A stretch of DNA of 51,201 nt, from positions 1 through 51,201 of the IMG/VR virus record IMGVR_UViG_3300030098_003235; one strand, given 5' to 3'. A program made the translations under genes and the position numbers. How positions within the stretch are numbered: position 1 is the stretch's first letter; the number at the start of each line of letters is the position of its first letter. Below are positions 1 to 51,201 of the stretch, piece after piece. Under the pieces are notes generated by a model. The model was not told the DNA's origin. It did no database searches and was given only the letters and a program-made list of their open reading frames with translations. This DNA is from a virus.

Positions 1-99
1 ACGTTAAGTTTGCTATATTTTTTTCAGGAGATATAACAGTAGTCATGCTTGTAGGTCTTGTAGAAGCATACACATTTGCTGCTAATTTCACAGCTTTAT
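1..99. repeat. Terminal direct repeat, left copy (contig closure)
   Basis: These 99 bases recur exactly at 51103-51201. The repeat lies inside a coding frame that reads continuously from one contig end into the other, so it marks circular closure (circular or circularly permuted DNA) rather than a biological long terminal repeat. An odd length such as 99 is typical of an assembler k-mer overlap. The unique genome length is 51,102 bp. Confidence 0.95.
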
Positions 100-739
100 G
101 TTTATTAGGCGGTGCGGTGTTAACTACGTGGTCTCCATTTTTAACTGCTGTAGTTAATGTATTCTTATCTGCTTTTACAAATTCATTTAGAACTCCCATT
201 TCTACTTTTTTAAATAAATTATACAGTGGGCTGTCTAATTTTAATAGGTTAGCAAATTTTGCATATACAACAGGAATTTTAGGTTTCTGTGTAGACATAG
301 GCCCTTGGGGAGAACGAAAAGTTTTATCATTTTTAATATTGGCTATTAGTTTAGATACATCGCCTATCAACAAACTTCTTTTGTCTGCATCTTTTAAGTA
401 TTCTTGTACTAATTCTCGGTTTTGAGCAAATGCAGATAGGGCATTTATTGATCTTTCTGACCTAGTTTCTCCTTTTGAATATAAAATCGCACCGCCTAAT
501 AGAGATGCTTTGTTTCGAGTCTTGAGATTTGTAGCTTTTATCTTTTCAAGCTCTAGCGCAGAAATATTACGCTGCTGTTGAAGTTCTCTTTGCAAATCCG
601 CTTTAAACCGAGCTTGTTCTCTTTGAAAATCTCTTTCTTCTTCAAGACGTTCCTGTTCCTGTTGGTACTGCCTATTTCTACTAATTCCCTCATCAACTGC
701 ACGTAAGGCACCTCCTAAAAATGCTGTAAAATTAGACAT
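1..739 (-). CDS. Internal virion-type protein, N-terminal part (gene continues at 51102-49496)
   Basis: This is the first ~246 residues of a 781 aa protein (2346 nt over the circular junction). The ATG at 739 opens MSNFTAFLGGALRAVDEGIS, followed by a Gln/Glu/Arg-rich probable coiled coil at about residues 22-75. The frame runs off base 1 and joins the frame at 51102-49496 exactly. The start overlaps the stop of the 206 aa gene upstream by 8 nt, suggesting translational coupling. By position among large proteins without catalytic motifs, between tail genes and lysis genes, it is probably an internal (ejection) virion protein. I recognise no domain. See 49496-51201 for the C-terminal part. Confidence 0.85.
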   Translation of the reverse strand, partial: MSNFTAFLGGALRAVDEGISRNRQYQQEQERLEEERDFQREQARFKADLQRELQQQRNISALELEKIKATNLKTRNKASLLGGAILYSKGETRSERSINALSAFAQNRELVQEYLKDADKRSLLIGDVSKLIANIKNDKTFRSPQGPMSTQKPKIPVVYAKFANLLKLDSPLYNLFKKVEMGVLNEFVKADKNTLTTAVKNGDHVVNTAPPNKHKAVKLAANVYASTRPTSMTTVISPEKNIANLT

Positions 740-1352
740 CTTCAATACTCTCCTCTTCCATTTCCATAAAACTTTCTGGCTCTTCAGTTACAGACACTTC
801 ATCATCGCTTTCTGTTTGTACAGAGTCTTCAAGTAAAACGTCTGTAGCATACATAACTTTGTCGTACATATCTGGCCTATTTTCTTTCATCATTTTAAGA
901 ACGTCTTCATCAGAAATACGCTCTTGTTCTTCTTTTGTTTTTGGATCAACATTAAATATTGTAGCAGGTATATTTGCTTCTTGTGCTAGACCTATAAAAT
1001 GTGCAGTAATAGGAATTTTAAGAATTTCTGATAAATCAGGTGTCCAATACCCTTCTGTAAAACCTGCAAAAGTTATTGTATTTGTAATTGACTCTATGGG
1101 TACACCAGAAGCCATAAGTCTTACAAAATTTTCTTCTACTTGAGGATTTTCTATTTTGCTAAGAACCCATGACATAGCTTCTTCAGGATCTGTATATTGA
1201 GGAGGGTTTTCCCATGCCCATTTTTGGGGTTCATCTGTAAGAGAATGACCCGGAGGAGGTGCGTTAAACATATCTAACGCTTCTACACTACCTTCTTCGG
1301 GAAGAATTTCTGCTTGTATATCAGAATCAAGTAATTCGTCTTCTATTACCAT
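732..1352 (-). CDS. Acidic hypothetical virion-associated protein (206 aa)
   Basis: Not recognised as a named family. The protein is strongly acidic at both ends, with Glu/Asp/Ser clusters in the last 35 residues. The middle (about residues 40-160) looks globular, with PEEAMSWVLSKIENPQ and helical segments. It sits between the 214 aa gene (10 nt upstream) and the 781 aa internal protein, whose start it overlaps by 8 nt, so all belong to one operon of internal virion proteins. No signal peptide or membrane segment is visible. A chaperone or minor structural role is only inference from position. Confidence 0.75.
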   Translation of the reverse strand: MVIEDELLDSDIQAEILPEEGSVEALDMFNAPPPGHSLTDEPQKWAWENPPQYTDPEEAMSWVLSKIENPQVEENFVRLMASGVPIESITNTITFAGFTEGYWTPDLSEILKIPITAHFIGLAQEANIPATIFNVDPKTKEEQERISDEDVLKMMKENRPDMYDKVMYATDVLLEDSVQTESDDEVSVTEEPESFMEMEEESIEDV

Positions 1353-1361
1353 AATATAATC

Positions 1362-2006
1362 CTATGTAACTCTGCTTGTAATTGATATTGCTGGTGCTTT
1401 ACCTGTTATATTTGGGCCTTCAGGCTTACCTTCGCCTGTTATTGCTTCAATTATAGCTTGATTTCTTTCTCTTGCTGCTTCTCTGTAAAGTCTATCTTGC
1501 ATTAATCTCGCAGCATCTGACCCTCTTTGTGACTGATTAATTAATGATGCAATAACATTATCAGAACGAACTTTTTGCGCTGAAAATTGACCGCTGGCTG
1601 CTCTTCCTGCAGGAGAAAAAGATCCTGATCTTGATCTTGGGGATGTAGGCATCCTCCTTTGTTGTCTTTGTCTTCCCTTTGTAACAGATCTTGCGCCTTT
1701 AGCAAAACCTGATATTGCTTCAATTGTATCACTACTCAATTTAAGACCATCTTCACCTAATATATAATTTTTAATTTTATCGCCTATACTCGTGTCATTA
1801 AAATCACTATCTTCAGTATAAAGAAAACCTTGATTATCATACTCAAAATCAAATATTTCATTACCATCTTCATTTTGAGTTCTAAGGTCTTCTTCTGTAG
1901 TGCCGGGAGCATAAAAACCTCCGCTTATTCCCCCCAGTTCTAAATCAATATTATTCTTATTATCATCTCCCCCAAACAAATTTGAAAAAAAACCAAAATA
2001 ATCCAT
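1362..2006 (-). CDS. Hypothetical virion-associated protein (214 aa)
   Basis: Unrecognised. It starts MDYFGFFSNLFGGDD with an acidic Asp/Asn/Glu N-terminal half. A basic Arg/Gln/Ser segment follows at about residues 108-145 (KGRQRQQRRMPTSPRSRSGS). The C-terminal helical region is rich in Gln, Arg and Ala. The bipolar charge resembles small ejection or core-associated virion proteins, but nothing identifies a family. The gene lies 10 nt from both neighbours, within the operon of the 715 aa and 781 aa proteins. Confidence 0.75.
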   Translation of the reverse strand: MDYFGFFSNLFGGDDNKNNIDLELGGISGGFYAPGTTEEDLRTQNEDGNEIFDFEYDNQGFLYTEDSDFNDTSIGDKIKNYILGEDGLKLSSDTIEAISGFAKGARSVTKGRQRQQRRMPTSPRSRSGSFSPAGRAASGQFSAQKVRSDNVIASLINQSQRGSDAARLMQDRLYREAARERNQAIIEAITGEGKPEGPNITGKAPAISITSRVT

Positions 2007-2016
2007 ATCTATGCTC

Positions 2017-4164
2017 CTAATCTAATATTCCAAATATACCATTTACAACTGTTGAACCTAAACTATCATAAAATGCTGTATCTCTATCTTTTTCATATTG
2101 ATTAGCATCAAATGTTTGTTGTTGTGCAAGAATAGCAATATTATGCGCTCTTTGTTTATCATTTTCAGATATCTGCATAGCCCACCCTGCTTCATCTCTA
2201 TATCTTTGCCACAACTTATCCATAGCTGTTTGTGTAAACCCTAACAGGTTAAGAGCATTTACTCTATTCGCTTCATTTTGTTGTGTAGTATTTGCTGTAT
2301 TTATACTTCTTCTCCAAGAGGCATTGGATTGTTGAATAATAGATTCATTTTGAATGTTAAATCTTTCTCTAGCATCATTCATTTTTGCAAAATAACGTTT
2401 ACCTGCATTGATTTGATCTGCGTTAAATTGATTCATAGCTGCCATACGGCTAGAGTTTGCGTTTGCCACTTGTACCTCTAATTCAGAAAAAAACTGATCT
2501 ACTTGCATTTGAGATTTAGCATTAAATTGTCTAGAAGCGTTTTCCTGTGCTTGATCGTTAAACATCTTTTGAAACTGGCTTTGTAAATCAATAGTCTTCA
2601 ACTGCTGTTGATTATTTAAATTTGCAGTATCCATTTGTAAAAATGCACGAGCGTTATTGACCGCTGCAGTCATTCGCGCATCTAGATTTGCTTTATCCAT
2701 AGCTGCAAATGTCAAGGCATTTTGTAAAGCGGTCTGCTGCTTATTTCTTAAATTTGCTATTTGAATTGTCGCATATTTGTTTGCATCTTCTTTTGCTATG
2801 CTTATTCCAGATTCCATCATGGCTTGAGTAATAGCTGCTGCAGCCATAGAAGATCTGCCCATTCCTCTTTGTGCCATCATTGCGCCAGCATTACGTACAG
2901 CAGGTGCTGCCCATGCTGGAGGAGGTTTACCTTCTTCAAATGAATCAAATAGCTGATCCATTTGATACTTAATAGTAGCTCTTTCATCGAGTTCTTCAGT
3001 AGCAGCAGTAGCTATTGCTTGTTGAGATACTGCTCCTTGTATGTCACCAATAAGAGATTCAGAAGAAGGCTGACCCTGCGCTGCAATATATTCGGGTGTG
3101 CCTTCCTGTACATAAGAAGAATATGTTTGTGCATTTGTTCTTGGAGGAGTAGCTATTTCTAAACCTGTTGTAGCAGCAGTAAGCAGAGTAGCAGCTTCAC
3201 CCTCGATAGGATCAGCAGAACGTATTTCTGCAAAAAGTTCATCTTCTTTTATTACTAAATCATCAGGATCAATCGCTGTACCTGCAGGAAGGTCTGTTGG
3301 GACAGAGCCTACTCCAGCTTGTGCCGCAGTTTGACCTATAGTTCTTGTTTCTAAACCTATTGGGGGTGCAGGAACGGCAGGGCCTGTTGGGTTAGGGTTA
3401 ACAGCGGTCTGCGCTCCAAATGTAACTCGTTGCCCTTGAGGATTAAAAATTATATCGGGGCCATCAGCCAATCCTTCTAGTTGACTAACTGTATACCCCC
3501 TCTGAGTCAAAAACTCTTTAAACTCAGGTGTAAGTTCCTGTCTAAAATATTTTCGATCTTCTGTAGGAGGGGCCTTTTCAAAGTTAGTTCTAGGCCCTGT
3601 AAACTGGTCAAAAACAGGGTCTACTAATGGGCGCTGGAAGGGAGTAAGCTTATCCATATTGCGATCATCTGTAGGCGAGGGAAAAAAATCTCGTATATCA
3701 CGATCAGAAGGGAAACTATACAGACCTGTTACTGGATCATAGTCTGCTCTATCTGTAATAAGACCCGGAGGTTCAGCAGGGCGTATCATTGGTTCCGTAA
3801 AAGGGCCAGTGCTAGGAAGAGTAGGTTGTGTAACAGGTTGCGGAGCAGGTTGAGGTGCAGGTTGTGTAACAGGTTGCGGAACAGGTTGAGGTGCAGGTTG
3901 AGGTGCGTTATATCCAAGAACATAATTTGTAAGAGGGTTACCGTCAACTTCTGTTTCCTGTTTGGTTATTGTAGCTCCACCACCAAGATCCCCTAAAGGG
4001 CGATTAGCTTGTAAATTTTGTTCGTAAGCTCTTGCTAAAACATCTTGTTGAGTTTCATATACAGGTTTATCCTGTTCATCTACTCCTATTTGTGTAGGTG
4101 GCCCCATAGACAACCTACCAGAAGCATCTCTTACAAGACCGGGGTAATTTGGTAATTGCGCCAT
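2017..4164 (-). CDS. Large internal virion-type protein, Pro/Gln-rich (715 aa)
   Basis: Residues ~80-120 contain Pro-Gln repeats of the APQPVTQP kind, encoded by repeated DNA at about 3820-3905. Residues ~400-700 are long, Ala/Gln/Asn-rich and predicted helical (probable coiled coil), as in podoviral ejection proteins. The C-terminus carries FDANQYEKDRDTA, nearly the same as the C-terminus of the 781 aa protein (FDASQYEKDRDTA), and the DNA there is a 41-bp near-identical repeat. No enzyme motif is visible. From its length, helicity and operon I infer an internal core or ejection protein. The ATG at 4164 lies shortly downstream of the 68 aa gene. Confidence 0.85.
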   Translation of the reverse strand: MAQLPNYPGLVRDASGRLSMGPPTQIGVDEQDKPVYETQQDVLARAYEQNLQANRPLGDLGGGATITKQETEVDGNPLTNYVLGYNAPQPAPQPVPQPVTQPAPQPAPQPVTQPTLPSTGPFTEPMIRPAEPPGLITDRADYDPVTGLYSFPSDRDIRDFFPSPTDDRNMDKLTPFQRPLVDPVFDQFTGPRTNFEKAPPTEDRKYFRQELTPEFKEFLTQRGYTVSQLEGLADGPDIIFNPQGQRVTFGAQTAVNPNPTGPAVPAPPIGLETRTIGQTAAQAGVGSVPTDLPAGTAIDPDDLVIKEDELFAEIRSADPIEGEAATLLTAATTGLEIATPPRTNAQTYSSYVQEGTPEYIAAQGQPSSESLIGDIQGAVSQQAIATAATEELDERATIKYQMDQLFDSFEEGKPPPAWAAPAVRNAGAMMAQRGMGRSSMAAAAITQAMMESGISIAKEDANKYATIQIANLRNKQQTALQNALTFAAMDKANLDARMTAAVNNARAFLQMDTANLNNQQQLKTIDLQSQFQKMFNDQAQENASRQFNAKSQMQVDQFFSELEVQVANANSSRMAAMNQFNADQINAGKRYFAKMNDARERFNIQNESIIQQSNASWRRSINTANTTQQNEANRVNALNLLGFTQTAMDKLWQRYRDEAGWAMQISENDKQRAHNIAILAQQQTFDANQYEKDRDTAFYDSLGSTVVNGIFGILD
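2074..2114. repeat. 41-bp repeat at the 3' end of the 715 aa gene (copy A)
   Basis: Matches 49514-49554 at 40 of 41 positions, in the same orientation; the one mismatch is t2102 against c49542. It encodes the shared C-terminal motif FDA(N/S)QYEKDRDTA in two otherwise different virion genes. On the circle the copies are about 3.66 kb apart. Confidence 0.9.
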
Positions 4165-16109: not shown

Positions 16110-17606
16110 CTATTGCATAACTCGTTCTGGAAACTGTTGAATTTCTCGTGTGTCCATTGTATTTTGAACTTTATCTAAACCGGGGCGCATCCTTGCTTGT
16201 TGACCACGAGTTGGTGGTTTTTCTTTTGGTAGTGGTGCGACTACCGCAGGTTTAGGTTTTTCTTTTGGTAGTGGTGCGACTACCGCAGCGTTATAAATTT
16301 TATTTGCAAAATCAATTCTTTTTTGTCTGCTGGCATTAGGGTTTTTAGGTCTTTCAAAAATTTCTAAAAATTTATTGGTTATTTGTTTTACATTACCAGT
16401 TTTAAAAATATTACGTAAAGATTCTCTGTTACCAAATCCTAAATCAGATGTTTCCCATTTTGGAAAATTAGCTGCTGTTTTATCACTAGTTATATTAATT
16501 GTATCTGTCATATATTCTAATTGAGAATCTATAGAGTCTGATTTTTTCATTTCTCGTAAATAATTTTCATAGGCTTTTTTTCTGCCGCCAGTAAATTGAA
16601 AAAGACCATATCCTTTGTTTTTTCCTTTTTTATCCTCTATACGTTTATAATCAAAAGTATCATTTTCTCCGTGAATATTTCCCATTATACCTGCAATAGC
16701 CTCTTCTCTATATCCTAAATTTTTTAATTTACGGCGTACATTGTTTTGATTTTTAATTATCTGGTCTTGAGAGGGTCTAATCTTTTTTTTTACCTGATTA
16801 CCTTTATTTAAAGCCTGTACCTGTTGTTGCATAGGCTCTACAGGAGCTTCTTCTTCAGCTATTCTCTCTTCTGTTTCTTTTTCACCACGTTTATTAATCT
16901 TTTCTAATAAGTCTAAACCTATCTCTTTAACAAGAATAGGTGGCAGATAATACTCACCATTGCTTACAGCTATATCTGTATCGCCTTCTACCTGTGCAGC
17001 AGGACTTTTTAATTGTTCTAAATTAATTTCTACGCCTTTTTTACGTAGAGACTCTATATTAGGTTTAAGAATACGTTCTTCAAAATCACGTACTCCAACA
17101 CGTTCTATAGCTGCAGCATTTACTACGTATGCCCCTTCTTCTGCATCCATTGGAACATCATCTGCAACACCTGTTTCAGAGGCTCCTTCTTGCATTATAG
17201 GGCCAGCAACTGCATCTACTGGTAAAACTTCAGCTAGAACATCTTCAATTGGAACATCTTCAGTTGGGGCAGGTGCAACAACTTGATCGCCTACTGCTAA
17301 CTGTTGCATCTGTTGTTCTATTGGTGACTGTATAGGTGTTTCTTCTTCTACAGGAGTTTCTTCTACAGGAGTTTCTTCTACAGGAGTTTCTTCTACAGGA
17401 GTTTCTTCTACAGGAGTTTCGTCAAGAGAGGCTTCTATAGATTCATCTACTAACTCTTCACTTATTATAATGTCAACACCAAGAACTTTTGCAAAACTAC
17501 GCAATTCCTCTGCGCCTATTTCTTGTATAACACTAATTACATTTTGTTGATCTATCTCAGAAAGATTTTGTAAGTTAGCATTAAATTGTTGTTCTGTTAT
17601 TTCCAT
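16110..17606 (-). CDS. Virion protein with tail-lysozyme domain (498 aa)
   Basis: The N-terminus (1-60) is helical and is followed by five VEETP repeats. A conserved region at about 130-225 (DDVPMDAEEGAYVVNAAAIE ... YYLPPILVKEIGLDLL) is familiar from other marine podophages. The C-terminal domain (about 300-450) has GIMGNIHGENDTFDYKR with a likely catalytic Glu, GYGLFQFTGG and LDSQLEYM, matching the phage tail lysozyme family (Phage_lysozyme2). It probably cuts peptidoglycan during DNA entry. A 39-bp duplication gives two AVVAPLPKEKP phrases near the C-terminus. The gene sits between scaffold and the 661 aa protein. Confidence 0.82.
   Translation of the reverse strand: MEITEQQFNANLQNLSEIDQQNVISVIQEIGAEELRSFAKVLGVDIIISEELVDESIEASLDETPVEETPVEETPVEETPVEETPVEEETPIQSPIEQQMQQLAVGDQVVAPAPTEDVPIEDVLAEVLPVDAVAGPIMQEGASETGVADDVPMDAEEGAYVVNAAAIERVGVRDFEERILKPNIESLRKKGVEINLEQLKSPAAQVEGDTDIAVSNGEYYLPPILVKEIGLDLLEKINKRGEKETEERIAEEEAPVEPMQQQVQALNKGNQVKKKIRPSQDQIIKNQNNVRRKLKNLGYREEAIAGIMGNIHGENDTFDYKRIEDKKGKNKGYGLFQFTGGRKKAYENYLREMKKSDSIDSQLEYMTDTINITSDKTAANFPKWETSDLGFGNRESLRNIFKTGNVKQITNKFLEIFERPKNPNASRQKRIDFANKIYNAAVVAPLPKEKPKPAVVAPLPKEKPPTRGQQARMRPGLDKVQNTMDTREIQQFPERVMQ
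16216..16288. repeat. 39-bp tandem duplication in the lysozyme gene
   Basis: A 34-base segment at 16216-16249 recurs exactly at 16255-16288, with a 39-base period. It encodes two copies of AVVAPLPKEKP in the linker near the C-terminus. The perfect identity points to a recent event. Confidence 0.85.
17346..17420. repeat. Five 15-bp tandem repeats in the lysozyme gene
   Basis: Five perfect copies of TTCTACAGGAGTTTC in a row. On the coding (minus) strand they give successive P-V-E-E-T units in the N-terminal acidic linker. Perfect identity suggests recent slippage; copy number may vary between relatives. Confidence 0.92.
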
Positions 17607-23931: not shown

Positions 23932-24636
23932 CTATTTAAGTTTAGGTTTTCTAGAAGAGTTAGAATATTTTTTAATTTGACCACCTTTTGCAAATTTAAG
24001 TGTAAGCCCAATATTTCCTTTTTTTTCAAATTTATTTGCTGATACTCCTGCAGTAAACTCTCCTGCCCCATCAAATATATCTTTTTTATAACCTATACCG
24101 CCTGTTAGTGTTTCTCTAGGAGCATCGGGATTAACTGCCGCTGAATATGAAAAACCATCTTTAGAGCCTCTAAATCCAAATTCTTTATATTTATCTTGGG
24201 GTCTAAATCTACCATACAAACTGCCTACATCTCCTGCTGGTACATTTACAGAAAACTCAGAAGGCATAAAATTTCTGTTTCCCTCTACGATAGAACGCAC
24301 ATTCGGAGAATATACGTCTAGGTTAACTCCAGTTAAACTCTTTAGTGAATTTGATCCTTTTGAAAACAGTTTGTCAAATTCTTTTTGAGTAAGATTTACT
24401 CCATCTTTTTTAAGTTGTTTTTTTGCTGCTCTTGAACCTTCTGCTGCAGTAATTGCGGCAATACCAGCAGCGTATGTCCCTGCTAAAATTGCTTCTTTTT
24501 TTGTAACATCCATTTTTGCTGGATCTACTCCAATAGATGTAAGAATCTCGTCCCCTTTTTTATAATAATTTAAAAGATTACTTCCTAAATTTTTAAGATG
24601 TTGTTTAGCTTCTTTTTTTGCTTGCCTACTTGCCAT
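23932..24636 (-). CDS. Hypothetical protein with helical head and beta-rich tail (234 aa)
   Basis: Residues 1-100 are basic and helical (MASRQAKKEAKQHLKNLGSN) with an Ala-rich segment (AGTYAAGIAAITAAEGS) that could be amphipathic or membrane-seeking. Residues ~125-225 are Gly/Phe/Tyr-rich with alternating strands (LYGRFRPQDKYKEFGFRG, GEFTAGVSANKF, NIGLTLKFAKGG), reminiscent of small beta-barrel pieces. The basic C-terminus is KGGQIKKYSNSSRKP. No family is recognised. It lies between the terminase subunit genes, so packaging or virion roles are possible. Confidence 0.7.
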   Translation of the reverse strand: MASRQAKKEAKQHLKNLGSNLLNYYKKGDEILTSIGVDPAKMDVTKKEAILAGTYAAGIAAITAAEGSRAAKKQLKKDGVNLTQKEFDKLFSKGSNSLKSLTGVNLDVYSPNVRSIVEGNRNFMPSEFSVNVPAGDVGSLYGRFRPQDKYKEFGFRGSKDGFSYSAAVNPDAPRETLTGGIGYKKDIFDGAGEFTAGVSANKFEKKGNIGLTLKFAKGGQIKKYSNSSRKPKLK

Positions 24637-25699: not shown

Positions 25700-26065
25700 T
25701 TAGTATTTAACTTTACGAATACCGCCACCACGAGCATAACCTTTATTCATCATGCCCATAGGTGAACCCATAGTATTATTCATAGGGAAGTTCATTTTAT
25801 CACTCATTGTCATACCTCCCATGTTATACTTCTTAGCCTTTTCAGGGTCTATCTTTTCCTGTACGCTTTCTGGTAACTTGGAAAAACCTTTTAATTTAGG
25901 AGGTACTTTTCCTCCTCTTCTCATTTTTTTAGCAGTCTTGTCTGCGTCTTTAAAATTCTGTGCGCTTGGTGCGCCTTTTGCTCCCGGCTTACGCATTTTT
26001 TCTCCTGATCCTGCAGCTATACGTTTGCGTTTTTGTTGAATGTTATGATAAAGCCCTTTTTTCAT
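25700..26065 (-). CDS. Small basic Gly/Met-rich protein (121 aa)
   Basis: MKKGLYHNIQQKRKRIAAGS and EKMRKPGAKGAPSAQNF form a strongly basic N-terminal half. I recall this opening from many marine phage genomes as an unnamed conserved protein. The C-terminal half is Met/Gly/Asn-rich and ends with RGGGIRKVKY. It is the first of a run of small, very basic proteins (with the DUF5872-like and DUF6321-like ones) near the late promoter. DNA condensation or virion DNA binding is a reasonable inference, unproven. Confidence 0.78.
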   Translation of the reverse strand: MKKGLYHNIQQKRKRIAAGSGEKMRKPGAKGAPSAQNFKDADKTAKKMRRGGKVPPKLKGFSKLPESVQEKIDPEKAKKYNMGGMTMSDKMNFPMNNTMGSPMGMMNKGYARGGGIRKVKY

Positions 26066-26495: not shown

Positions 26496-26900
26496 TTAGC
26501 ACTTCCACCTTTTTCTTGCTTGTCTTAATCTGCTATTTGGGTCTTTTGCAGCCTTGGGAAACTTTTTCATTTGCCCTGCTGATCTAGCGCAATAAGACTT
26601 ACGCCTTTTTGCAGCTTTACTTCCCTTCTTTACATCTCCAGTTACGGCTGTTTTTAACTTGGAACCGGGGTTTGCCCTTCTATAAGCTTTAACTCCTGCT
26701 TCTGTCATACCTGCGCCCTTTTCAGTAGGGCGATAATTCTTTTTATTACGTGGGGGCATGTTGTCTGGTTTACGTACACCGCCCCCTTTTGCGTAGCTTT
26801 TCTTACTTATTGCTGCTACACGCTTAGACTGCTGCTTATGCATATTTGAAGCTTTGATAAGCTGTTTAGATATCTCTTGTAATTCTTCTTTTGCTGGCAT
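26496..26900 (-). CDS. DUF6321-like basic protein (134 aa)
   Basis: The C-terminal domain (TEKGAGMTEAGVKAYRRANP, GSKLKTAVTGDVKKGSKAAK, RRKSYCARSAGQMKKFPKAA, ending RQARKRWKC) matches my memory of DUF6321, widespread in marine phages. The N-terminal 50 residues are helical with KSYAKGGGVRKP. The protein is extremely basic and contains two conserved-looking Cys. It may bind DNA or RNA. Its start overlaps the end of the Cys-rich protein by one base, suggesting co-translation. Confidence 0.8.
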   Translation of the reverse strand: MPAKEELQEISKQLIKASNMHKQQSKRVAAISKKSYAKGGGVRKPDNMPPRNKKNYRPTEKGAGMTEAGVKAYRRANPGSKLKTAVTGDVKKGSKAAKRRKSYCARSAGQMKKFPKAAKDPNSRLRQARKRWKC

Positions 26901-27225: not shown

Positions 27226-27231
27226 GTACCT

Positions 27232-27260
27232 ATTATACATATATAAATAGGATTTGTCAA
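27232..27260 (-). promoter_or_regulatory. Consensus sigma70 promoter, leftward late unit
   Basis: Minus strand: TTGACA (27260-27255), 17-bp spacer, TATAAT (27237-27232): both boxes perfect with optimal spacing. The predicted start is near 27225, leading into the Cys-rich gene at 27106 and the whole head-packaging-tail cluster. Its -35 lies in an 18-bp inverted repeat shared with the divergent rightward promoter. Confidence 0.9.
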
Positions 27261-27309
27261 GTAAAAAATAAAAAAAAATTAAAAATAGTGCATTTTTTAC
27301 TTGACAAAT
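27252..27309. repeat. 18-bp perfect inverted repeat joining two divergent -35 boxes
   Basis: Left arm ATTTGTCAAGTAAAAAAT (27252-27269) and right arm 27292-27309 are exact reverse complements, separated by 22 bases. Each arm holds one -35 element (TTGACA outward). The symmetry suggests a shared regulator site or a duplicated and inverted promoter. Confidence 0.9.
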
Positions 27310-27329
27310 GCGATATTTTTGTGTATAAT
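27301..27329 (+). promoter_or_regulatory. Consensus sigma70 promoter, rightward short unit
   Basis: TTGACA (27301-27306), 17-bp spacer, TATAAT (27324-27329). The predicted start near 27336 lies ~85 bases before the small basic gene at 27423, whose unit ends at a perfect terminator at 27592-27625, giving an RNA of about 290 nt. Confidence 0.9.
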
Positions 27330-27380
27330 AAGAGTAACTCTGCCACAGGAATAAATATATACTCCACCAACCCCATAACA

Positions 27381-32053: not shown

Positions 32054-32100
32054 GTTTTTTCTCTGCTTTACAAAAATAAACGACAGCTACCCGATTTCTT

Positions 32101-32174
32101 CACGCCACCCTATTTAAAGGAGTAGTCGGGAGCCACTCACGCCACCCTATTTAAAGGAATGGTCGGGAGCCGCT
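32101..32174. repeat. 37-bp tandem duplication in a leader
   Basis: 32101-32137 and 32138-32174 are two adjacent 37-bp units differing at only three positions, each containing CACGCCACCCTATTTAAAGG and TCGGGAGCC. The block is much richer in G+C than its surroundings. The first unit can pair GCTxCCCGA upstream with TCGGGAGC. It may be a duplicated RNA element or binding site. Confidence 0.9.
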
Positions 32175-45226: not shown

Positions 45227-48200
45227 TTATTTAAGTCTTGCTTTTTCTAAATCTTTCATTTGTCGGTCTGTTTTTTCCTTTTGTTCTATTCTTTCATGGT
45301 ATGCTAAACCATTTATGAGAGTAGTAAAAATATTCGATCTGTATTTTCTTAATTCGGCTCCATCACTTTCAAGTATGGCAATTACTGCGTCTGTTACTTT
45401 TGGATTTTGCAATATTTCAGAAAGTGCTTGTGCTTTTTTCTTTCTAAGACCAAGTAAGGCAACTTCTGTTGCCACGTATTTCGGACTAATTATTCCACGA
45501 GATATGCTGTAAGCACGAGATAACAGTGACTCTACTGATAGCCCTCTTGGAACTGTATATTTTCCTGCCGCTGGTAATAGGGCGTTTTTTGGATCTCTGT
45601 TTATTACTCTGAGATACTCAGCCATTCTTTTTATAGTGTTATATTTTTCCCCTGTAATTTTTTCTAAGACTTCCTTATTTTCAACAACTAATTTAAACAA
45701 CTTCTCGTAGTCGAAATTTCTTATTACTTCTCCTGCTGTAGAAGTATCTACAAACTCTCCGTATGAAGCTTTAGAAAGTGCTTCTATAGTAATATCAGAG
45801 AATAGATCTCCAGCTTCTTTTTCTGATATATTTAAAGCTTTTGCTATATTGGGTATGACTCCCTCTACTCTAGTAGAAGCTAAATCGTCCTCTACAAAAA
45901 ATTTTAAAAACCCTTCAAAACTTTCTGCTTTTCTACTGGCCCCTCCTAGACCAGTATAATCTATTGCAGCTTCTAAAGCCTTTTGTCTATTATTAAATAG
46001 AGTATTGTTTTTTGATTTAGAAATTTTAATTTCCTTATTAAGATTTTCAATTCTCCTCTTTCTAAGGCTACCTCTTCCTATGTATCTTTCAATATTTCGG
46101 TTATAGTTAGTAAGATGTTCTAAATCAATAAAGCCTTCACTTTCTAAAATTTTTATAGATGGGCTATTTATTATTTTAGGAACTATATTTCCTCGTAATC
46201 TTTTTCTTCCCTCTTCAACCGTTCTTTCTACAGCCCCTTCTTTTTTTGCAAGTCGAGCAGCTTGTTGTATGGCTGGTTGATCTCCAATGTGCCTATATAA
46301 AAGACTTTGTATCAAAACTCTTACTTGCTCAAGTGATTCTTCATCTCTTATCTCGTATATAGCTTCTCCTAATGTATCTCTACCTGTGTATTCTCCGAAA
46401 GTTCTTTTGATAGATTTAATTATATCCGCTGCATCTTGAGAGGTTCCTTCAAAAAGTTTATTTGAATTTAACCATTTTACAGGTTCCTTTACAAAATCTT
46501 TGGCAAAAATTTTTGAAAGATCATATCCAATAGGATTTACTTCTTTATTTTTATACCGAGCAACAACATTGTTTAACCAATAATCTTTTGCCTCTTTTAT
46601 TTGTTCTCTTACTGACTCTTCTAAATTTTTATCTGCATCTATTTTAAATTTTTTTATTAATGATTCTGCCAAAGTTCCTAATTTAAATGATTGTGTTCCA
46701 TCAGTTGTTGATGCTGAAGATCTTAAAAAAGAAGAAGACATACGTTGTATATCTATTGGTTTTACTGTTACTTTTAGTGCGTTTGATGCATTTTCATTTA
46801 TATCTTTTGAAAATTCTTTTAATAAAATTAATACATCAAAATCAGTTATTATTTCGTCATCTCCCCTAGCCCTTTGAAAAAATCGTTTAAAAACATTAAA
46901 CGTGTTGAGGGGTGGCCCTTCTGCGTCAATCTCTTCAAAAAGTTTAGAGTCTAGTTCTTTCATTTCAGCAAGCAAATCTTTTCTAAAACTTGGATTGGCC
47001 CTTAATACTTGTCCTATATTAGTTGTAGCTTCTACATTTGCAAACGCTTGTAAAATAAACGCATTAGGAGTAATGGTAGAACCAAGTCTTGCCCTTAATT
47101 TTCCTGTGCGACCTTTAACTATAGTTTTACTGTAAACTTCTCCAGCTTCACCTGCTGTTGCGTACAAACCTTGAAGCCAATCTGTAATATCCAATCTTAC
47201 GTCTTTATCTTGTAGGGCTGTAAATTTTTCGCTTCCATCGCGGTGAAAAGTTGCCTGTTTCTTTTGCGCTGCCCTAGCAAAGTTTCTTCCTGCATTTTCA
47301 GCGTCTATTTGGTATTGTTCAGGTTTAAAATATTGTGCTAATAAAGTTTTTACATCGCTTTCAGCTTCAACATCACCTTTTCTTACTTGTTGAACTAATT
47401 CTTTTGCTTGTTCACCAAATCCTCTTACACCTGTTTCTAATTCTTCTCTTCCTGCTTCTGCCCCTTTTCTTTTCATAAAATTACTACTCATAATTCTTTC
47501 TATAAGTTCAATAATTTTTTCCGACGCATTTTCATCGGGATTTATACTAGGATCAGCAATTATACGCATAATATCATTAATAGTTTCGTCGATGTTTGCT
47601 CGACCTTGTGAAATTGCAGTTGTCTCAGTTTCGGTAAAACTTCTCATGGCTGTTACAAACGTGTTAAGCTTTTCACTTTTAACACCTGCCTTTTCTGCAG
47701 AGCTTGATAGAGTATCTATAAGAGTTCTAAATCCTTTTATCTGTTCTATCATAAGATCTTCATTGTTTAACGTATCTATTAACGTTTTACTTAATTTAGA
47801 AAAATCTTTAGATAAAGATTGATTTGTTGTTCCTGCATTTGCTAAAGTTTCTCTCATTATCATAAGAGGTACAAGTCCAGTAGCCTTGTCTATGGTAGTT
47901 TTAAGTAGTTCCTCATTTACTCCAGCCGCAGATAAATCAGATCTTATTTCACCAACATATTTTATTTGACCATATACAGCCGCCCTTTGGTCTTCAGGTA
48001 AACTCCTTATGAAAAAGGCAAAGTCTTCTGCAGCTTTTCTTGCTTCTTTACTAAGTCCTGTCAGCGCACCTGCTGGTATTTTACCACTTGCAACCATTCT
48101 CTCAACTTGGTCATCAGAAAGTTTTCCTATTGTTTGCCCTAAATCTGCAAAGAGAGTAGACGCTTGTTGTATTCCTCGTTTTCCAAGTTTTAATGCTCCT

Positions 48201-49480
48201 TCAAATAAAACTAAAGAACTAAAACCTCCTCCGAGTGCGCCAAATAACGCCCCTACTTCATTGCCATATATTCTTTCCCCTATATTTGCCCCTATCGCTG
48301 CACCAACCTCTGTAAGAGGAATAGCTATTAATTCTTTTGGCATTGCGTTTATTCTTCTTTGTCTCGCAATAGTTAAAGCACGTTGTTCTCTTTGGAACAT
48401 TTGATTATCTTTAAATCTATCTCTAGCAACCTTTTTTCTTTTTCTTAAATAGTCAACTTTTTTATCTAATGGAGATGTGCTTCTTAATAAATCATATGAC
48501 TTATTGTCCAACCACCTTTTTTGTTGTGCATTTCTATATAGCCTCTGCGCTCTAAGTGGCCCCCTAAAACTACCAAGAAAAGAATATACCTTTTTTTCTG
48601 CCAGATATCTTGATGCCTGATTTATCTGGTCTTCCGTAGCATTTAATGTGTTGATACCTTTCTTTTTTTGTTTATCAAATAAAAATTCTAAAGCATCATC
48701 AACTTGTTTTACCATATTTTTAGAATTTCTAAATGCAAATTTTAAACCAGCAGCAGTAAATCCAGCTACTTCTGGAATAGTTCGCATAACTTGTTCAACT
48801 ATAGTTGCATTGGGCCTTATATACTTTGTTAAAGCTTCTGCCTCTCTTCTTGAGATAACTTCTGTTTTATCAGAATAATTGTCTAGGACATCCTTAACAA
48901 AGCTAGATTTAGATCTAATTTCAGGTGTATCTGAATATATTTTAAATGTTGTTTTAAGAAACGCCTCAAGTTGTGGGTTTATATATTCATTGTCTTCTGC
49001 CTTTTTTACCATTTCAGCATAATATTTTGAATATTTTTCGGGGTCTTTTCCAGAAATAGAATTAATATCCATACCAAAAGGTTGCAGAGCAGTATTAACA
49101 ACTGCAGCAACGTTGTTAACAAAAAATGATCCTAGATCGTATAGTCCTGCAGATATATTCATTTTCTCTGTAGGACTAAGGAGCAAATCAGTTACAGAAG
49201 GAATACCTGTAGTTGTTTTTATTAAACTTTCACCATAAGCTCCTTTAATGGCTTCTTCTACTTCTCTTGTTCTTCTTGTTAAAATTCCCTTTGTAGGAAA
49301 AGAAGTAACTCCTCCTGTTTGTTCTAATCGCTCTCTATCTGCTCTTAATAAACTTTCTGACACATCACTTTTTAAAAGTTCTTCAGTAGATTTAAACCCA
49401 GTACCCAAAGATAAATCAAGATTTTTATTTTGATTTGTTCTTGCATCTTCTACCTCTTGTGGAGAGTATGTTATTGGCAT
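45227..49480 (-). CDS. Giant internal virion protein (1417 aa)
   Basis: The largest gene in the genome. It begins MPITYSPQEVEDARTNQNKN and is predominantly helical, with Glu/Lys/Arg-rich segments. A Gly/Ala-rich hydrophobic stretch near residues 390-430 (LTEVGAAIGANIGERIYGNE, ALFGALGGGFSSLVLF) could insert in or cross a membrane during DNA ejection. Size and late position match the large ejection proteins of podoviruses (compare T7 gp16), but no lysozyme domain is visible here; that activity is on the 498 aa protein. It lies 15 nt after the 781 aa gene's stop. Confidence 0.82.
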   Translation of the reverse strand: MPITYSPQEVEDARTNQNKNLDLSLGTGFKSTEELLKSDVSESLLRADRERLEQTGGVTSFPTKGILTRRTREVEEAIKGAYGESLIKTTTGIPSVTDLLLSPTEKMNISAGLYDLGSFFVNNVAAVVNTALQPFGMDINSISGKDPEKYSKYYAEMVKKAEDNEYINPQLEAFLKTTFKIYSDTPEIRSKSSFVKDVLDNYSDKTEVISRREAEALTKYIRPNATIVEQVMRTIPEVAGFTAAGLKFAFRNSKNMVKQVDDALEFLFDKQKKKGINTLNATEDQINQASRYLAEKKVYSFLGSFRGPLRAQRLYRNAQQKRWLDNKSYDLLRSTSPLDKKVDYLRKRKKVARDRFKDNQMFQREQRALTIARQRRINAMPKELIAIPLTEVGAAIGANIGERIYGNEVGALFGALGGGFSSLVLFEGALKLGKRGIQQASTLFADLGQTIGKLSDDQVERMVASGKIPAGALTGLSKEARKAAEDFAFFIRSLPEDQRAAVYGQIKYVGEIRSDLSAAGVNEELLKTTIDKATGLVPLMIMRETLANAGTTNQSLSKDFSKLSKTLIDTLNNEDLMIEQIKGFRTLIDTLSSSAEKAGVKSEKLNTFVTAMRSFTETETTAISQGRANIDETINDIMRIIADPSINPDENASEKIIELIERIMSSNFMKRKGAEAGREELETGVRGFGEQAKELVQQVRKGDVEAESDVKTLLAQYFKPEQYQIDAENAGRNFARAAQKKQATFHRDGSEKFTALQDKDVRLDITDWLQGLYATAGEAGEVYSKTIVKGRTGKLRARLGSTITPNAFILQAFANVEATTNIGQVLRANPSFRKDLLAEMKELDSKLFEEIDAEGPPLNTFNVFKRFFQRARGDDEIITDFDVLILLKEFSKDINENASNALKVTVKPIDIQRMSSSFLRSSASTTDGTQSFKLGTLAESLIKKFKIDADKNLEESVREQIKEAKDYWLNNVVARYKNKEVNPIGYDLSKIFAKDFVKEPVKWLNSNKLFEGTSQDAADIIKSIKRTFGEYTGRDTLGEAIYEIRDEESLEQVRVLIQSLLYRHIGDQPAIQQAARLAKKEGAVERTVEEGRKRLRGNIVPKIINSPSIKILESEGFIDLEHLTNYNRNIERYIGRGSLRKRRIENLNKEIKISKSKNNTLFNNRQKALEAAIDYTGLGGASRKAESFEGFLKFFVEDDLASTRVEGVIPNIAKALNISEKEAGDLFSDITIEALSKASYGEFVDTSTAGEVIRNFDYEKLFKLVVENKEVLEKITGEKYNTIKRMAEYLRVINRDPKNALLPAAGKYTVPRGLSVESLLSRAYSISRGIISPKYVATEVALLGLRKKKAQALSEILQNPKVTDAVIAILESDGAELRKYRSNIFTTLINGLAYHERIEQKEKTDRQMKDLEKARLK

Positions 49481-49495
49481 TATTTTTTCCTTGGT

Positions 49496-51201
49496 TCAGT
49501 TGGTGGTATTTATTGCTGTATCTCTATCTTTTTCATATTGACTAGCATCAAATGATTGCGTAAACAATTTTCTAATTCCATCTGTTATGGAATTAGATTT
49601 TTTTGCGTCTGTGTTAACTTTAGCAGGTTCATTGCTAACACCTGCCTTTTTTCCAAATGATATTTTAGGCAGCTTATTTCCTTGAACTAGTTCACTAGAG
49701 AAACCATAAGTTATAGGAACAGTCTCTCCACTCATAAGATCAAAAGCAAACTTTCCACGTATATTTTTTCTAATTCTCTCTCTTTCTTCGTCAGTCCTAG
49801 CCGCTACGTATTCTTGAATCAGTGGAGCATTTACAACATATAGTCTATCATTGTCTCTGATAATTCCTAAAGTTCTAGAATCTCCTGCTTCTAATTTTAT
49901 ATCCCTTTCAATAAATGCGTTTAGAGCTACATTATTATATTTAATTACACCCGACGCATATTTATATTTATCACCAGATTTATTTATTGTATTAAATCCT
50001 CGCGCAGTTGCTGCTGTTAGCCTGTCTAAAAGAAAAGGTCTGCTGTAAGTATTAAAAGTAGAACCGTAAACCGTATTTAAAGGTTGATTTTTAAATTTAT
50101 CTTGAAATTTTCTATTGACAGTTTTAACAAAATGATCGACTACTCCATCACTACCACCTTTGTAATTTTGAAGTAGGTCTGATACTTTTAAATAGCTGGT
50201 AAATAAACCAGCATTAGCATTTGGCCCTAGTGCATTAGGAGTAAAAAATTGACCTCTTGTTAATGCCCTTTCAATAAAATCTTTTACTAATTCTAATTTA
50301 GCTAATTTTTGTTCTTTGTTTATAGTATCGCCACCAAATATTGATAAAGTTCTTGATACGTCTTGATCTGATATAGTTCTACCGCCTGTTCCACCCTGTA
50401 AAATAGCTGTTAATTGATAAGCTAGTGTCATTTCTAACGCTTCTCTTCTTGCAGCCGCTATTTCCTGTTGTTCAGATCGGGTTCTAACTCTTTTTTTTGC
50501 AAGCTCTTCTGCCTTCATATAGCGTTCTTTAATATTTTTAACTTTCGATACAAGCTTTGAGCCGTGGTCAAAAAACCCTCCGCCAGTAGCTGTAACTATA
50601 TTAAACATTTGTGTTGCTGCACCTTTTATAAAACTAGGAAGCGCACCTCTCATAACTATTAAATTATTAATAATTCCAGATCCTTCTCCTGTTTCATTAA
50701 CTGCACCAATAAGTCTTGTTAATGTAAAATTTGCACTTTCAGCAGCTTGGTATTGGTTATTTAACTCTTCTATTTTTTTTCTTTGGGTTGAATTATTTTT
50801 TAAATATGCCTCATAAGTAAGGGGGTCAGGAGGGTAACCGGGAGTACTATTGGGTAAAGTAGTATTTTGTTTAGCGTATATTCTAACCAGCTTAATGATA
50901 TCATTTTTTTTAATACGCCCTTGCTCATCTACAAAACCATGTTCACGATTAAATAACCATTTTCTTGCTTCTTCTTTCATTGTATCATCAGGTATAGCTT
51001 TTCCAGATATAAGTTTTACAAAAGGGCTATTAGCAGCAGACCAGTATTTGTTATTTCCTTCATTATTTTCTTGCTCCGGGTTCCAATCGCTTCCTATAAG
51101 GGACGTTAAGTTTGCTATATTTTTTTCAGGAGATATAACAGTAGTCATGCTTGTAGGTCTTGTAGAAGCATACACATTTGCTGCTAATTTCACAGCTTTA
51201 T
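49496..51201 (-). CDS. Internal virion-type protein, C-terminal part (gene starts at 739 across the junction)
   Basis: This is the C-terminal two thirds of the 781 aa protein that begins at 739 and passes through the contig ends. The frame is fully open to base 51201. It is Lys/Asn/Ala-rich and helical, with NLTSLIGSDWNPEQENNEGN near the junction, AEELAKKRVRTRSEQQEIAA, and a hydrophobic patch AAARREALEMTLAYQLTAIL. It ends with FDASQYEKDRDTAINTTN, repeating the C-terminal motif of the 715 aa protein. An apparent GTG start at 51193 is internal (the frame continues HKAVKLAANVY) and is an artefact of the window end. No catalytic motif is visible. Confidence 0.88.
   Translation of the reverse strand, partial: KAVKLAANVYASTRPTSMTTVISPEKNIANLTSLIGSDWNPEQENNEGNNKYWSAANSPFVKLISGKAIPDDTMKEEARKWLFNREHGFVDEQGRIKKNDIIKLVRIYAKQNTTLPNSTPGYPPDPLTYEAYLKNNSTQRKKIEELNNQYQAAESANFTLTRLIGAVNETGEGSGIINNLIVMRGALPSFIKGAATQMFNIVTATGGGFFDHGSKLVSKVKNIKERYMKAEELAKKRVRTRSEQQEIAAARREALEMTLAYQLTAILQGGTGGRTISDQDVSRTLSIFGGDTINKEQKLAKLELVKDFIERALTRGQFFTPNALGPNANAGLFTSYLKVSDLLQNYKGGSDGVVDHFVKTVNRKFQDKFKNQPLNTVYGSTFNTYSRPFLLDRLTAATARGFNTINKSGDKYKYASGVIKYNNVALNAFIERDIKLEAGDSRTLGIIRDNDRLYVVNAPLIQEYVAARTDEERERIRKNIRGKFAFDLMSGETVPITYGFSSELVQGNKLPKISFGKKAGVSNEPAKVNTDAKKSNSITDGIRKLFTQSFDASQYEKDRDTAINTTN
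49514..49554. repeat. 41-bp repeat at the 3' end of the 781 aa gene (copy B)
   Basis: Second copy of the repeat at 2074-2114, 40 of 41 bases identical, same orientation. Flanking bases on both sides diverge at once, so the shared piece is sharply bounded and confined to the coding motif FDA(N/S)QYEKDRDTA. Confidence 0.9.
51103..51201. repeat. Terminal direct repeat, right copy (contig closure)
   Basis: Exact second copy of bases 1-99. The minus-strand frame of the 781 aa virion protein passes through it without interruption, which shows that position 51102 is followed by position 1. Confidence 0.95.

Follow-up and report, generated by a model that had tools for sequence, protein, structure and literature searches.

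A near-identical 45-nt segment in two genes of a marine phage suggests a recent in-frame copy from one gene end to another

How did two different genes of one phage come to carry nearly the same stretch of DNA close to their 3' ends? The genes encode proteins of 715 and 781 amino acids and lie in the window, that is, the whole stretch of 51,201 nucleotides analysed here. The contig is circularly closed by a 99-bp end repeat (1-99 = 51103-51201), and the reading frame of the 781-aa protein crosses the contig junction unbroken. From its sequence matches we assign the window phage to the HMO-2011-type marine phages. The best matches of the DNA polymerase are HTVC033P, CRP-1, CRP-345, CRP-3, CRP-235, CRP-207 and HMO-2011, those of TerL are CRP-1, CRP-345, HTVC115P and other HMO-2011-type members, and the 715-aa protein also matches phages of this type; the portal was recognised by a general profile only. 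A similar gene run, with a related 715-like protein, TerL and DNA polymerase, is found in HMO-2011, CRP-345 and HTVC033P (PMC9038755). The gene order from the 715-like to the 1417-like gene is conserved in the group, HMO-2011 itself having four genes in this run, and the window conforms to it as follows.

2017 to 4164, minus strand: 715-aa gene, first of a five-gene run; donor of the segment.
1362 to 2006, minus strand: 214-aa gene, second in the conserved run.
732 to 1352, minus strand: 206-aa gene, third in the conserved run.
1 to 739, minus strand: first part of the 781-aa gene (ATG at 739; the gene resumes at 51102 after circular closure).
49496 to 51102, minus strand: second part of the 781-aa gene, with the copied tail at its end; recipient.
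45227 to 49480, minus strand: 1417-aa gene, fifth in the conserved run.

Gene order and size suggest that the 715-aa and 781-aa proteins are probably virion-internal and that the 715-aa protein is of the ejection type. The internal core or ejection proteins of phage T7 are gp14, gp15 and gp16, and the window has a similar row of large genes (715, 781 and 1417 aa), the first of them long-helical; membership is not claimed. Unlike the T7 core proteins, the window proteins have no match to solved chains or folds. Searches of both proteins against PHROGs, Pfam above cut-off, a PDB profile and known folds gave nothing reliable, and no likeness to gp14, gp15 or gp16 was found by sequence or by fold, the low confidence of the 715-aa model weakening the fold test.

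The shared segment is 45 nt long and occurs in two copies on the minus strand.

2074 to 2118, minus strand: donor copy, 45 nt, QTFDANQYEKDRDTA, residues 683-697 of the 715-aa protein, a region with homologs in 715-like orthologs.
49514 to 49558, minus strand: recipient copy, 45 nt, QSFDASQYEKDRDTA, residues 762-776 of the 781-aa protein, whose 781-like homologs are without the segment.

The earlier note had described a near-identical 41 bp ending both proteins. That core is indeed identical at 40 of 41 positions and extends to 43 of 45; it does not end both proteins, as 18 residues (FYDSLGSTVVNGIFGILD) follow it in the 715-aa protein. In the 781-aa protein it is followed by five (INTTN). Both copies are translated in the same frame, as Q-T/S-FDA-N/S-QYEKDRDTA, and the sequence flanking them differs between the two genes. 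The only two nucleotide differences are nonsynonymous (ACA/TCA, giving T/S, and AAT/AGT, giving N/S) and none is synonymous, so that the codons are identical at all 13 shared residues; with the codon usage of the genome, independent draws would give this agreement with p = 5e-4. The match scores 39, whereas in 40 dinucleotide-shuffled versions of the genome the highest-scoring dispersed match reaches 15-19, and a search of the window allowing up to three mismatches has an expectation of 0.00 chance matches. A chance origin of the match is excluded. The window holds no third copy. The segment was found neither in viral contigs scanned for the exact DNA nor, at the peptide level and with a degenerate pattern, in viral contigs or in bacterial and archaeal genomes.

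Relatives were gathered with a profile of the 715-aa family, which gave 80 contigs, 79 of them with sequence beyond the donor gene. Where the gene order is readable, the 715-like gene is followed by genes for about 220 and about 200 aa, then by the 781-like gene and finally by one exceeding 900 aa; in a few contigs the fourth gene itself is longer than 900 aa. A homologous but divergent version of the segment tail stands in the 715-like protein of about 75 of the 79 relatives (examples are FNAEQYKKDRDN and FNAEQYEVEREN, with further divergent tails in FNAEQYKKDRDNTLFKSLG and FNAEQYEVERENQFFSALG); in L167, L168, L173 and L174 the 715-like protein as read ends in other sequence. A counterpart of the segment is absent from all 54 relatives with a complete 781-like gene. 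When the 3' end of the donor gene was compared with the DNA downstream of it in the 79 relatives, a few of which end too soon, no score exceeded 14, against 39 in the window. The tail common to both genes thus sets the window apart from every HMO-2011-type relative examined. Since the region of the segment is vertically inherited in 715-like genes and has left no trace in 781-like genes, the 715-aa gene is the donor and the 781-aa gene the recipient; and since no relative examined has both copies, the copying event belongs to the window lineage only. As is expected of an illegitimate copy, the segment is absent in the recipient's relatives and present in the donor's.

The end of the recipient gene suggests where the segment was added.

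49562 to 49573, minus strand: RKLF, the counterpart of the (K/N)LF that the nearest 781-like proteins have close to their stop codon; the protein probably ended here before.
49496 to 49513, minus strand: INTTN and the stop codon after the copied segment.

The nearest 781-like proteins end, each directly before the stop codon, in SKLFSGRQ, GKLFGMGG, NKLFGGEG, NKLFK and LKLFGGK, and the window protein reads RKLFTQ, with the patch directly after it and then INTTN and the stop. A (K/N)LF motif a few residues before the stop occurs in 7 of the 54 complete 781-like homologs, all in this nearest group. The gene end is most simply explained by addition of the patch to the former C-terminus of the 781-aa protein. 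Near neighbours also differ among themselves behind KLF: L111 and L117 read KLFEVQQQPKRNRPPGR and L125 reads KLFGGK, in each case up to the stop codon. This variation marks a fast-changing gene end, which is readily replaced or extended.

The age of the copy may be judged from silent sites. The patch has 0 silent changes at about 8 synonymous sites, which puts the upper bound of dS at about 0.4. Between the 715-aa gene and seven of its orthologs, by comparison, 41-61% of the codons are identical at identical residues, and synonymous sites are saturated or nearly so in these comparisons. The contrast between a patch without silent change and near-saturation between orthologs supports a recent copying. 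Searches with the 781-aa and 1417-aa proteins found no close relatives, and a contig of the same species was found but stops 79 codons into the 715 gene. With no relative near enough to display the recipient gene in its state before the event, the junctions are unreadable and the age has only a loose bound. The copied version may have come from an earlier or a sister version of the 715 gene; T684 and N688 of the 715-aa protein are both S in the copy, 5 and 8 of the 39 orthologs, respectively, also have S at these sites, and few have T or N.

We consider it very probable that the tail of the 781-aa protein arose by a recent, short, illegitimate copy of part of the 715 gene into the 3' end of the 781 gene, in frame and in this lineage. 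About 45 bp from the 3' part of the 715-aa gene would have been copied about 3.6 kb away to the 3' end of the 781-aa gene, presumably by illegitimate recombination or template switching that kept the frame. The old stop codon would have been replaced or overrun just behind the putative former KLF end, the 781-aa protein would thereby have gained a tail of about 20 residues, and this tail would be tolerated without being needed. The duplication is genuine, but as a genome accident it is a minor one. Recent transfer, as the earlier note had proposed, is borne out and can be given a direction from 715 to 781, because only the donor gene carries the segment in relatives; its alternative of gene conversion is the less apt term for a one-off patch copy in which no homologous gene pair was homogenised. 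Illegitimate recombination, micro-duplication and mosaicism at gene ends are known from tailed phages. The present case resembles such mosaicism in that a short non-homologous segment sits at a gene end, with the frame kept and the protein body untouched, and differs from its usual form in that donor and recipient lie in one genome and can both be named, and in that only 45 bp are involved. It offers a clear, directed example of a phage protein gaining a tail by a 45-bp in-frame copy within its own genome, caught before its synonymous sites drifted.

A rival explanation takes the copied peptide as a docking signal kept by selection, with which the 781-aa protein binds a partner of the 715-aa protein (the portal or the 1417-aa protein). 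The segment is in frame and C-terminal, and the residues best conserved over its length within the donor family make up its F-x(4)-Y-E core. A model of the 715-aa protein, built on 39 sequences and with a mean pLDDT of 56, shows the segment as a break that leads into the final helix (residues 687-714). For the 781-aa protein the last 567 residues were modelled; the tail has low confidence there (<50), with a short helix predicted from the equivalent residue onward. The copied tail may have a docking function. The shared tail is found, however, in none of the 79 relatives with the donor gene (54 with a complete recipient gene), and the tails of 781-like proteins are variable. Conservation of the donor tail peaks at R672, H674, Y690 and G703, of which the patch holds Y690 alone. 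The copy also lacks LGSTVVNGIFG, the hydrophobic stretch that closes the donor tail and includes the conserved G703 and F711. The docking or cleavage tag imagined in the earlier note fits poorly with relatives that carry the segment in one of the two proteins only, and all copied residues but F685, Y690 and E691 rank low in conservation within the donor tail. The search of related phages proposed in that note found the motif in only one of the two genes, an outcome that the note had listed as refuting; it speaks against a shared tag and for recent copying. It is rather unlikely that the copied peptide was kept by selection in such a binding role, and we would likewise give little weight to the idea, drawn by analogy with the peptide YAKGGGVRKP, that a second virion protein was newly given the binding end of the first. 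That peptide is a further C-terminal one, borne by several unrelated genes of the relatives, and would favour docking.

An assembly artefact, namely a chimeric join in a metagenome contig, is very improbable. The record comes from a public contig collection and the contig ends fall inside the 781-aa gene, as such an error might have it; yet the flanks differ at each copy, both genes stay open, two mismatches distinguish the copies, and a chimera formed at a repeat common to both genes would continue into the downstream sequence of the other gene. The segment is slightly less likely still to have a function as a DNA or RNA element (a binding site, a packaging or recombination signal, or a terminator). 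Nucleotide identity without synonymous change would suit an element of this kind, and selection at the DNA level had been proposed on that ground. There are only two copies, however, both in the same reading frame and with none elsewhere in the window or, as exact copies, among the scanned viral contigs; RNA folding is no better than in shuffles, Rfam gave no match, a tRNA search found nothing, and synonymous sites are near-saturated between donor orthologs. Common descent of both gene ends, or their convergence, has no supporting point and is highly implausible: the segment is absent from 781-like relatives, and identical codons would be improbable under independent draws. The recent copy from 715 to 781 is the reading that we retain.

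The peptide YAKGGGVRKP was met while relatives were scanned for other short dispersed repeats. In L072, two different genes share 35 of 35 bases at their ends, and these bases belong to its coding sequence; YAKGGGVRKP(K/N)Y recurs on small genes near terminase genes in uncultured HMO-2011-type contigs (L060, L067, L072, L046 and others). In 95 of the 107 instances, which come from 54 contigs, 3-7 residues separate the end of the peptide from the stop codon, and two to four open frames carry it in 32 of the 54 loci, most of these contigs having been chosen for holding the peptide and some being counted twice under two locus ids. A terminase gene lies nearby in the contigs inspected. The gene bodies can be unrelated: two neighbours in L060 share their last 23 residues fully and nothing else by BLASTP. 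The examined stretches of four isolates do not contain the peptide, and a literature search on recurring C-terminal peptides found nothing relevant. Three copies were recognised in the window.

25700 to 26065, minus strand: gene with a good YAKGGGVRKP copy, GYARGGGIRKVKY before the stop codon.
26496 to 26900, minus strand: gene with an internal YAKGGGVRKP copy.
23932 to 24636, minus strand: gene with a degenerate YAKGGGVRKP copy.

YAKGGGVRKP is a better candidate for a portable tag than the 45-nt segment. It is perhaps of wider interest, as with it the idea of portable C-terminal tags in phages could be put to the test.

Several other repeats were seen. A weak match between 47672-47699 and 49628-49655 (28 nt, 82%) was judged to be at chance level. 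Tandem repeats at 17343-17417 and 16216-16293, made of 15-nt units and a 39-nt pair, have lengths that are multiples of three and lie in genes of the structural region. Two adjoining 37-nt repeats, 92% identical, occupy a gap between small genes at 32100-32173, and an inverted repeat at 27231-27330 has 39-nt arms that are 85% complementary and 22 nt apart, with no clear gene there. In the relative L085, a perfect 31-nt inverted repeat (3342-3372 and 3761-3791) flanks a short, unassigned stretch.
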